Source: an uncultured Flavobacteriaceae bacterium (lineage in GTDB: Bacteria; Bacteroidota; Bacteroidia; Flavobacteriales; Flavobacteriaceae). From it: 64,000 bases of DNA. This document shows positions 33,792-36,293 of this stretch, piece after piece. Every line of letters begins with the position of its first letter. The first letter of the stretch is position 1. The stretch is from positions 124,001 to 188,000 of the forward strand of contig CANLWG010000010.1 of NCBI GenBank assembly GCA_947494715.1, written 5' to 3'. Made by a program: the position numbers and the translations under genes. The notes below the pieces were generated by a model. That model had not been told where the DNA came from. It did no database searches and was given only the letters and a program-made list of their open reading frames with translations.

Positions 33792-35360
33792 TTATTTGGC
33801 AACGTTCACGGATCGGGTTTCCCGAATTACGGTTATCTTCACTTGTCCTGGATAGGTCATGTCTGTCTGAATTTTTTGGGAAATCTCAAACGACAGTTGC
33901 GCTGCCTTGTCATCACTTACCTTTTCGCTCTCCACTATTACACGAAGCTCCCTACCTGCTTGTATGGCATATGCCTTTTGAACACCTCCAAAACCGAAGG
34001 CAATGTCCTCCAAATCCTTAAGCCGTTGTATATAAGAATCCAGTACCTGTCTGCGTGCCCCGGGCCTTGCCCCACTAATGGCATCGCATACCTGAACTAT
34101 GGGAGAAACAAGGGTTTTCATTTCAACCTCGTCATGGTGAGCTCCTATAGCATTGCAGACATCTGACTTTTCGCCAAATTTCTCGGCCCACTGCATTCCT
34201 AAAATGGCGTGTGGCGTCTCCACTTCCGCTTCGGTATTGGGTACTTTACCAATATCATGCAATAATCCAGCTCGCTTGGCCAATTTTGGATTGAGGCCCA
34301 ATTCAGCGGCCATTACGCCGCAAAGCTTGGCCACCTCCCTGGAATGTTGCAATAAATTCTGACCATAGGAAGATCTGTATTTCATTCTTCCCACTGCCTT
34401 GATCAATTCAGGGTGCAACCCATGGATTCCCAAATCTATAACTGTACGTTTACCTACTTCTACAATTTCCTGTTCTATTTGTTTTTCCGTCTTCTTTACA
34501 ATCTCCTCAATACGGGCCGGATGTATACGGCCATCTGTTACCAGTTTATGAAGGGATAACCTTGCCACCTCACGCCGCACAGAGTCAAAACAGGAAAGTA
34601 TGATCGCTTCTGGCGTGTCGTCCACAATAATTTCCACACCCGTTGCCGATTCCAAAGCCCTGATGTTCCTACCTTCCCTACCGATAATCCGACCTTTTAC
34701 ATCATCGGATTCCAAGTTGAATACGGAAACACAATTCTCAACTGCTTCTTCTGTACCTATGCGTTGGATTGTATTTATAACAATTTTCTTTGCTTCCTGT
34801 TGTGCCGTTAACTTTGCCTCTTCCAAAGTGGTTTGCATATAGGCCATGGCATCGGTCTTCGCCGTCTCCTTTAGGGATTCCAATAATTGGCTCTTTGCTT
34901 CTTCAGCGGAGAGACCGGAAATTACCTCTAATTGCTGTACTTGGTTTTTGTGCAATTTTTCAAGTTCGGACTGTTTTTTTTCATAGAACTCGGTCTTATG
35001 ATCAACATCCTTTATTTTCCTTTCCAGTTGCTCGTTCAGCTTTTTGCCCCTTGCCAGTTCATTGCTTATCTGGGACTCTTTGTCACGGGTCCGCTTTTCT
35101 GCCTCGGCAATTTTTTTGTCCTTGTTGATGATGACTTTTTCATGTTCCGCCTTGAGCTCTAAGAACCTTTCCTTGGCCTGGAAAATCTTATCCTTTTTAG
35201 TATTTTCCCCTTCCAATTTGGCACCCTTAATGATTGATGCCGCCTCTCTTTTGGCATTGGCAATGGTCTTGGAAGCCTTGCCTTTCTCCATAAACTTGGC
35301 AATTACAAAGCCCACAATAAGTCCAATGATTCCTGTTATTATTGCTATAGTGCTATCCAT
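33792..35360 (-). CDS. rny: Ribonuclease Y
   Basis: A 522-residue endoribonuclease that initiates mRNA turnover at the inner membrane. The N-terminus is a single membrane helix (residues about 5-22), followed by a long charged coiled coil with repeated Glu/Lys heptads, a KH RNA-binding domain (RIIGREGRN near 215), and an HD catalytic domain (LLHDIGKV near 367). All expected domains are present. An upstream in-frame ATG at 35396 exists, but the membrane helix suggests the start at 35360. It lies downstream of the 6S-like RNA on the same strand. Confidence 0.96.
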
Positions 35361-35480
35361 GTTATCGAAAATTAAAATTGTTATCCGCCTGTACAAAACA
35401 GACTCCGCCCTGTAACGAAGTTAGTGCAACCTACAATTTTGATGGTTACAAACGCTATCATCGAAATAGGGGGTTCTCAA

Positions 35481-35650
35481 TAAAAAAAGCCCACATCGGA
35501 GAAGTTTTGTACAAACTCCTATAAACAAGTTTAGGGCTAACAGACTGCTCAAGGATCCTTATACTAGTAAGGCCTGCTTTTACAACCTAAACTCACCCTT
35601 TTCAAACAAATTAGTGTTGAGTTCGTCAAAAGATAATACCAATGTGGGCA
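35481..35650 (-). ncRNA. ssrS: 6S-like RNA (rod-shaped RNA with closing stem)
   Basis: On the minus strand, GCCCACATTGG (5' side, 35649-35639) pairs with CCGATGTGGGC (3' side, 35499-35489), followed directly by a run of seven T, as in a transcript end. Between them, GTTTAGG/CCTAAAC and TTTTG/CAAAA-type stems stack toward an apical hairpin (CCTTA...TAAGG near 35557-35572), giving a 170-nt rod with internal loops. This is the shape of 6S RNA, which mimics an open promoter to bind RNA polymerase. In E. coli, ssrS also lies next to zapA, and here the RNA directly follows zapA. A covariance-model search would be decisive. Confidence 0.72.
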
Positions 35651-35678
35651 GTAACTATATATTTAAAAGAACGTATTT

Positions 35679-35975
35679 CTATTTTAAGCTTAGCTTCGAA
35701 TTTACAAGATCATCCAACGCCCTTAGGCGTTCTTTGGCCTTCTTGGCCCCCTCGGATTGATCAATGCCACTTTGCTCTATCTTTGAGGCAAATTGTAGGG
35801 CGCACATGGCGAGCACGTCTTGTTTATCCCTTACGGCATAGTTTTGCTCAAACTTTTTGGCCAATTGTTCAATGTTTTTGGCCGCTTTCCGAAGTCCTTC
35901 TTCTTGGGAAGGATCTATCGTTAAGGGGTATACCCTATCTGCAATTGAAAGTTTAATCTTTAGCCTTTCTTGCAT
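35679..35975 (-). CDS. zapA: Cell division protein ZapA
   Basis: A 98-residue ZapA protein, which binds and cross-links FtsZ filaments at the division site. The N-terminal beta-rich segment and the C-terminal coiled-coil region (KERLRALDDLVNSKL) match the short ZapA family. It lies 15 bp after a coiled-coil gene on the same strand and 29 bp before the 6S-like RNA. The family call rests on length, helical pattern and context. Confidence 0.88.
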   Translation of the reverse strand: MQERLKIKLSIADRVYPLTIDPSQEEGLRKAAKNIEQLAKKFEQNYAVRDKQDVLAMCALQFASKIEQSGIDQSEGAKKAKERLRALDDLVNSKLSLK

Positions 35976-35990
35976 TTTAATTTTTGAGCA

Positions 35991-36293
35991 TTATTCCGCG
36001 AGTTGGGCTATGCAATGATCCAACTCCCTGATCAATGTGTTTATCTTAAGCTTAGCTTCTGTTTTATTTGTATTACCGCCCAGCATCGAATTAGCAAGTT
36101 TTAGCGAATTGTATTTCTCCTGCCATTCCGCGACGGAATCCAAAACACCATCCCTATCGTTTCTTACGGCCATCAATTCATTTTCAAGCTTTGAATTGGC
36201 TTGCTGGAGTAATTCCATTTTGTGCAACAACTTGCTAATTTTGTTCTCCAAGGAATCAACAATTTGTACCAATTCGCTCATGTAGCTATTCAA
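35991..36293 (-). CDS. Small coiled-coil protein next to zapA (ZapB-like)
   Basis: A 100-residue, almost entirely coiled-coil protein (Leu/Ile heptads, e.g. VDSLENKISKLLHKMELLQQ). Its position directly upstream of zapA suggests a division-associated partner, as ZapB is in E. coli. It could equally be an unrelated coiled-coil protein; no catalytic domain is present. The start at 36293 is preceded by a TAnnTTTG promoter. Confidence 0.75.
   Translation of the reverse strand: MNSYMSELVQIVDSLENKISKLLHKMELLQQANSKLENELMAVRNDRDGVLDSVAEWQEKYNSLKLANSMLGGNTNKTEAKLKINTLIRELDHCIAQLAE

Follow-up and report, generated by a model that had tools for sequence, protein, structure and literature searches.

The window, a stretch of 64,000 nucleotides from an uncultured Flavobacteriaceae bacterium, carries a gene that we assign with very high confidence to the Rfam 6S-Flavo family (RF01685) of 6S RNA, on the same strand as zapA and rny, with a product that would act by docking into RNA polymerase holoenzyme. 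6S RNA is a small RNA thought to restrain RNA polymerase, and members of the class are discrete RNAs of 150-200 nt that are abundant in stationary phase and bind the holoenzyme containing the primary sigma factor. 6S RNA in Flavobacteria is already known and RF01685 is not a new family, as it appears in Table 1 of Weinberg 2010 (PMC2864571, available to us in part); thus, the object in the window is ordinary. The finding itself is correct, and its surroundings merit follow-up. Rather than being a flavobacterial novelty, the zapA-6S-rny order probably reflects an ancient arrangement passed on by inheritance.

RF01685 was the sole gathering-level match when the whole window was scanned with cmscan against Rfam 15 (35622-35513, minus strand, 102.2 bits versus a cut-off of 85), so the original prediction of a 6S RNA holds at a curated covariance-model threshold. 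The match spans model positions 1-108 (35513-35622), which is the whole model, and places the window RNA in the same family as the 6S-Flavo RNA of Weinberg et al. 2010 (PMC2864571, as far as the part available to us describes it). The genome from which the window derives holds one copy. A full-length covariance model, R1, built from alignment A1 alone (families f1, to which the window belongs, and f2, of the same order) and thus including the window sequence in its training, gave 166.2 bits and likewise a single copy in the genome. The entire conserved block, which opens with ACUGCC and closes with the U-run, occupies 35482-35652 on the minus strand. The predicted extent of 35481-35650 was thus nearly exact, except that the conserved block starts two bases upstream, at 35652, and ends at 35482, giving 171 nt. 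The 108-position Rfam model does not reach the closing stem P1, the U-run or the outer portion of P2, all of which are conserved in relatives.

The closing stem P1 comprises 11 bp with one G.U pair (35649-35639 with 35499-35489) and is followed by seven U residues (35482-35488), which are likely an intrinsic terminator and the 3′ end of the RNA. Further in, the downstream helix P2 pairs 35619-35631 with 35505-35518, with a bulged A at 35510. The central bubble has no consensus pairs on either strand. Its 5′ strand (35600-35618), between P2 and the inner stem, is the expected template of the short product RNA (pRNA), a role assigned from other 6S RNAs, and its 3′ strand (35519-35532, AAACUUGUUUAUAG) contains a near-invariant A..C.UG block. 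The single-sequence fold of the window RNA places two short helices in the 5′ bubble strand, whereas the consensus has none. The inner arm (35533-35599) consists of the stem AGGGU/GCCCU, interrupted helices and an apical hairpin, numbered helices 3-6.

Pfam confirmed the predicted neighbours on both sides, as the gene upstream, 35679-35975, encodes the cell-division protein ZapA (PF05164, E 3.6e-18) and the gene downstream, 33792-35360 with the start codon picked by eye, encodes RNase Y (PF12072, 6.8e-35; HD, 6.1e-19; KH, 1.2e-6). The 6S element begins 26 nt past the zapA stop codon, and the RNA, zapA and rny all lie on the minus strand. A small coiled-coil ORF 5′ of zapA (35991-36293, minus strand) is weakly ZapB-like (PF06005, E 2.7e-4, under the Pfam cut-off). 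The spacer between the 6S RNA and rny (35361-35481) is about 120 nt, longer than in many Flavobacteria, and contains unrelated insertions in several relatives.

The window RNA (170 nt) folds at -53 kcal/mol, while 200 dinucleotide shuffles gave a mean of -36.9 (sd 3.9; z -4.1) and none folded as well. Alignment A1 comprises 28 sequences less than 93% identical, chosen from 49 loci with zapA and rny. RNAalifold on A1 gave 31 pairs, 19 of them with two-sided changes, and this output, together with the single-sequence fold and the structure line of Rfam, was used to draw a structure with six helices and 41 pairs. Across the 28 non-redundant relatives, these pairs were formed in 93.1% of 1117 cells, and shifting the partners by 1-3 columns lowered pairing to 29-46%. 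Two-sided changes occurred at 24 of the 41 pairs (shuffled mean 17.0) and in 137 cells (43.8 shuffled), and the covariation score was 0.393 versus 0.187; none of 500 shuffles reached any of these three values. Further pair types numbered 58, which 12 of 500 shuffles equalled. Every one of the six helices holds pairs with two-sided changes. P1, absent from the Rfam model, was paired in 99.3% of cells and changed on both sides at 6 of its 11 pairs, P2 was paired in 90.4% of cells with two-sided changes at 4 of 13 pairs, and the inner arm had them at 14 of 17 pairs. The conserved block was present in all 49 zapA-rny loci of f1 and f2, and in all 49 the sequence after the stem fitted the pattern of at least six T, or TATTTT. 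The minus-strand closing stem of 11 bp, inner pairing, apical hairpin and U-run proposed for this stretch were reproduced by the fold, the stem exactly; the stem covaried in relatives, and the check for compensatory changes in the zapA-rny gap of relatives found them. The closing stem, large central bubble, inner stem and covariation that mark 6S RNAs as a class were all found in the window RNA. As the closing stem is conserved and covarying, the conserved unit is the RNA in its full-length outline rather than the shorter core in Rfam.

When 501 bases were rescanned at a more permissive threshold, RF00013, the generic 6S model, stayed under its cut-off in the window (19.1 versus 46.4 bits, E 0.096) with an alignment spanning its full length, 1-187; given this score, the window RNA is not filed under RF00013. 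The same scan aligned RF01693 (Bacteroidales-1, annotated "6S-Bacteroidales RNA suggested") over 1-179, also below its cut-off (22.8 versus 60 bits). The window RNA shares with E. coli ssrS, of the RF00013 family, both the architecture and zapA as 5′ neighbour, but ssrS is followed by fau and the window RNA by rny. The ZapBA-SsrS-(FAU1)-EVE array of beta- and gamma-proteobacteria, described in the part of PMC7641849 available to us, has the window's order of zapB-like gene, zapA and 6S RNA, and differs from the window locus in that rny comes after the RNA here.

Among 395 genomes of the phylum, RF01685 gave matches at E ≤ 0.001 in 50, one each, of which 20 exceeded the cut-off. These comprised 41 genomes of f1, eight of f2 and one of family f5. 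As a search of the same 395 genomes for RNase Y returned the identical 41 f1 and eight f2 genomes, the RNA was present in every f1 and f2 genome in which rny was seen. The zapB-like gene, zapA, the RNA and rny stood in that order on one strand at 49 of the 50 RF01685 matches, which supports, in gene order, the predicted tie of 6S RNA to zapA and rny; the link to zapA proved broader than had been guessed. The sole exception was locus L050 (genome G037, f5), where RF01685 scored 38 bits and no zapA, zapB or rny match was present in 4.2 kb. There, R1 gave a full-length match of 58.5 bits (2232-2022, minus strand of the locus), and L050 was not recovered by R1 in the whole-genome search.

For wider comparison, 49 same-class and 11 other loci were gathered and placed by rny, and zapA was immediately 5′ of rny in most of the same-class loci examined. 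R1 scored 19.3-31.1 bits on the opposite strand of its own training RNAs and 12.8-14.2 bits at stray sites outside the gap, and on account of these background scores its weak matches were counted only together with position in the gap and alignment. In all 10 loci of f3, a family of another order, R1 matched best at a site within the zapA-rny gap and on the coding strand. Two of these were strong (L066, E 6e-6; L065, E 1.4e-4) and eight weak (13.4-20.6 bits), four of the latter (L067, L068, L071 and L074, 13.4-15.2 bits) standing barely or not above the stray matches. The consensus fold of an f3 alignment of its own showed a common closing stem and U-run, and P2 paired at long range in nine of the ten single folds, L067 being counted as the failure. 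The P2 pairing AACUC/GAGUU of the Flavobacteria's order is mostly AACUU/AAGUU in f3, with AAACUU against AAGUUU in six loci and AAGCUU against AAGCUU in L062. The zapA-6S-rny arrangement therefore probably holds in all ten f3 loci, as judged from sequence comparison and, in eight of them, through weak matches plus alignment.

Outside this arrangement, R1 matched Bacteroidales-1 RNAs end to end in five of five loci (E 5e-9 to 9e-5), all over the RF01693 cut-off and, unlike the window RNA, all away from zapA-rny; the two examined adjoin genes read by eye as dnaJ and rplT. R1 also matched all eight f8 genomes (E 1.8e-7 to 0.0067, about 200-217 nt) away from the zapA-rny locus, and the f8 zapA-rny gap was 56-69 nt in 7/8 loci measured. 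The other 32 of 40 same-class genomes gave no R1 match at E 0.1. As these include four f3, one f5 and two f11 genomes whose RNA was otherwise identified, the R1 whole-genome search overlooks weak copies. Families f4, f6, f7, f9 and f10 yielded no 6S RNA with R1 (21 genomes) or with the model R2 described below, and their 6S RNA may have been lost, be too divergent or have been filtered out.

In other classes of Bacteroidota, the same gap contains an RNA that Rfam does not recognise. Ten of the first eleven loci, taken one per family, held a shared RNA upstream of rny, and an Rfam scan of these eleven loci (31 kb) returned nothing relevant and one unrelated match (E 0.91). Forty further loci were added, mainly from families where the RNA had already been seen. 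A nucleotide profile built on 18 loci and refined once matched 48 of the 51 loci, a count that is in part built in, since the loci were a selection and also served to refine the profile; an earlier regular expression had recovered 21 of 51. All profile matches were on the rny strand, zapA was recognised upstream in 44 of the 48, and none of 99 other loci (L001-L050, L062-L110) was matched. The three loci without a profile match were L111 and L169, where the gap is too short, and L134. RNAs of this type are located at L112-L121, L130-L168 and L170-L189, and none reached an Rfam cut-off in the loci scanned.

A core-only alignment (A4, 36 of 40 listed sequences), in which some P2 3′ strands are shifted so that the values for P2 are lowered, gave 27 pairs formed in 91.8% of cells, 16 of them with two-sided changes. 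Two-sided changes filled 115 cells versus 38.7 shuffled, a value reached by none of 500 shuffles. The architecture of this RNA comprises an outer stem, P2, a bubble of about 15-20 nt per strand and an inner arm, with P2 reading AAGAAC/GUUCUU and compensated in L146, L147 and L161. For the outer stem, helices formed with the RNA's own flanks scored a mean of 28.6 versus 18.6 for re-paired flanks; 27 of 46 exceeded the control's 95th percentile and only 2 of 46 its maximum, as related sequences cross-pair.

The corresponding model, R2, matched 232 of the 395 genomes at E ≤ 0.001, one match each, of which at most 36 were training genomes; none of the 232 belongs to the window's own class. It gave no match in four f1/f2, six f3 and one f5 loci, and one faint match (E 0.59) across four Bacteroidales-1 loci. 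R1 and R2, whose training sets are disjoint, converged on the same RNAs elsewhere: R2 matched all five f8 loci given to it, which R1 had found earlier (E 4e-4 to 0.04), and four of seven named Bacteroidales gap RNAs found by R1. Among these four, L199 was strong for both models (R1, E 4.2e-7; R2, E 2.3e-5) and the other three were weak for R2 (E 0.05-0.8). In three of twelve loci, RF00013 aligned over its whole length to the R2 site, below its threshold (26.1-31.2 bits, E 0.011-0.18), and in the other nine it gave no match at E 3. In 20 further R2 loci from 12 families, zapA was just upstream in 18 and rny downstream in 11. At L175-L180 and L183, which represent f13, f22, f36 and three of the four f30 loci, zapA lies 5′ of the RNA and no rny was found downstream. 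The 6S architecture, the convergence of R1 and R2, the end-to-end RF00013 alignments and the address at zapA suggest that the R2 RNA is likely a 6S RNA. A fixed neighbour thus allows 6S RNAs to be located where sequence models miss them, since it was the zapA-rny gap that led to this structured RNA below the Rfam cut-off.

The association of 6S RNA with zapA extends beyond Bacteroidota. Proteobacterial 6S RNA was expected to be encoded beside zapA too, and the gene order in E. coli K-12 is indeed zapA-ssrS-fau; a published survey reports the ZapBA-SsrS-(FAU1)-EVE array to be widespread in beta- and gamma-proteobacteria (PMC7641849, available to us in part). Named genomes were searched for a GC-rich RNase Y pattern, which makes for a GC-biased sample, and at least 80 loci were obtained. 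Among the matches listed, zapA was upstream of rny in 34 of 80 (18 of 22 loci titled as Bacteroidota in their records and 16 of the remaining 58), counts that include many loci with little upstream sequence and that rest on a ZapA profile trained on Bacteroidota. The 16 loci outside Bacteroidota among the matches listed comprised eight from Acidobacteria, two from Rokubacteria, two from Desulfovibrio, two from Aminicenantes, one from a Deltaproteobacterium and one from Lujinxingiaceae. RF00013 scored at or over its cut-off between zapA and rny in ten of these 16 listed loci (50.1-95.6 bits), namely six from Acidobacteria, two from Rokubacteria and two from Desulfovibrio. In all ten of these listed loci, the RNA is on the same strand and precedes an in-frame rny start; it lies past the zapA stop codon, by 394 nt in L191 and by 17-106 nt in the other nine. 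RF00013 gave no match in the other six listed loci: the gap is 62-115 nt long in four of them, and L231 and L261 offer room for the RNA. In the 18 named Bacteroidota loci among the matches listed, R1 gave seven matches (E 4.2e-7 to 0.064), including two Alistipes and one Prevotellaceae MAG, all at the zapA-rny gap with an overlap of at most 24 nt into the end of zapA, and none of these seven listed RNAs attained an Rfam cut-off. R1 matched none of 11 canonical 6S loci, including E. coli, and R2 none of the 16 loci outside Bacteroidota among the matches listed, nor E. coli; R1 and R2 were thus discarded as general 6S detectors. The gaps of L231 (Lujinxingiaceae) and L261 (Deltaproteobacterium MAG), which measure 341-469 nt and gave no Rfam match at E up to 1, possibly hold further unrecognised 6S RNAs.

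The simplest reading of these gene orders, that with the fewest steps, would be an ancient zapA-6S linkage with either rny or fau behind it; repeated insertion of 6S RNA after zapA is the alternative. We lean, with moderate confidence, towards an ancient linkage in which zapA-6S-rny was an ancestral block of several phyla, of which zapA-ssrS-fau of E. coli and zapA-6S-rny of Flavobacteria are two remnants, and in which much of Bacteroidota has an Rfam-unrecognised 6S RNA at this position. If true, ZapA-dependent division, transcription inhibition by 6S RNA and decay by RNase Y have been inherited together, and division, 6S RNA and RNA decay are perhaps co-regulated through the 6S terminator. 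The fixed neighbour also turns the location of E. coli ssrS beside zapA, an old observation, into a question of deep and possibly functional linkage. No report of zapA-6S-rny in Bacteroidota was found in the literature searched on 6S RNA, zapA, rny and Bacteroidetes, which covers the field in part, and the portion of PMC7641849 available to us makes no mention of 6S RNA at zapA in Bacteroidetes.

By analogy with other 6S RNAs, the rod-shaped window RNA would mimic an open promoter and dock in the housekeeping RNA polymerase holoenzyme, and the accumulated RNA would block the polymerase. On nutrient upshift, polymerase would copy the 5′ bubble strand into a short pRNA, the synthesis of which would unwind P2 so that the RNA is ejected. 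Such pRNA-driven unwinding of P2 releases 6S RNA in E. coli and B. subtilis, according to the part of PMC8876501 available to us. Within the phylum, the accessible portions of two reports describe 6S RNA and two pRNA classes detected by dRNA-seq in Bacteroides thetaiotaomicron (PMC7366714) and 6S RNA among the known RNAs detected in F. psychrophilum transcriptomics (PMC9723704). The B. thetaiotaomicron 6S RNA is presumably RF01693, judging from the Rfam description line and a control genome.

Two further elements of this mechanism were considered and set aside. For E. coli 6S RNA, a release hairpin in the 3′ bubble strand has been reported (PMC8876501, available to us in part). When columns 26-46 were held unpaired, i.e. 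with the P2 5′ strand occupied, an extended E. coli-type hairpin (AAACU..AGUUU), joining the 3′ bubble strand to the 3′ strand of P2, was predicted at a probability above 0.5 in only 8 of 28 relatives and was not predicted in the window RNA (pair probability about 0.01), and we reject it as the general mechanism of release. In most rows of A1, the sequence of the 3′ bubble strand is (U/A)AAAC(Y)UG, which resembles the sigma-A box TAnnTTTG, and columns 165, 170 and 171 are invariant in all 28. Promoter mimicry by this strand was not adopted, as the motif is not conserved in f3 or among the R2 RNAs when compared by eye.

The 3′ end of the window RNA is probably formed at the closing stem and U-run, and the 5′ end would arise by processing of a zapBA-6S precursor or from a non-canonical promoter. 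A housekeeping promoter of its own just 5′ of the RNA gained no support from a scan for TAnnTTTG, which found the box just twice in the 120 nt preceding the RNA across 49 loci. In 48 of 49 loci, this consensus scan, which misses many promoters, gave no such box between the RNA and rny.

The U-run directly after the closing stem and the distance of only 26 nt from the zapA stop are also what would be seen if the zapBA message simply ended in a long terminator or 3′ UTR stem that does nothing in trans. We regard this as very improbable, as a terminator needs neither the conserved bubble nor P2 nor the inner arm, the core fits a curated RNA family, and relatives occur away from zapA in all eight f8 genomes and all five Bacteroidales-1 loci. 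These same f8 and Bacteroidales-1 RNAs also lie away from rny, and R2 RNAs follow zapA even where no rny was found (18 of 20 with zapA, 11 of 20 with rny). Both facts weigh against a cis-acting leader that controls rny, through RNase Y autoregulation by attenuation or processing, and we give such a leader hardly any credence even though rny is downstream in 49 of 50 loci and a terminator-like end lies in the path of any read-through into it.

A 6S RNA acting in trans could in addition serve in cis, its terminator setting the level of rny expressed from the zapBA promoter and thereby tying division, polymerase inhibition and RNA decay together. The conserved order and strand in the loci examined agree with such a dual role. 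So does the near-absence of TAnnTTTG between the RNA and rny, which leaves a separate housekeeping promoter for rny not obvious. Many promoters escape a consensus scan, however, and some RNA-rny spacers are long and variable, so that the dual role is a tentative proposal that we think unlikely, though with an appreciable chance of being right.

Just past the zapA stop codon of the window lies a GTTCTT box (35667-35672, minus strand). Of 41 f1 loci, 35 have it 0-7 nt past the stop, as do all 10 f3 loci, against a shuffle rate of 0.01-0.03, and it is absent from the 60 nt after the stop in all eight f2 loci. Five of the six f1 exceptions read GTTCAT. The box may be a processing site or part of a promoter. 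In f3, GTTCTT is kept at the zapA stop even with about 100 nt inserted before the RNA.
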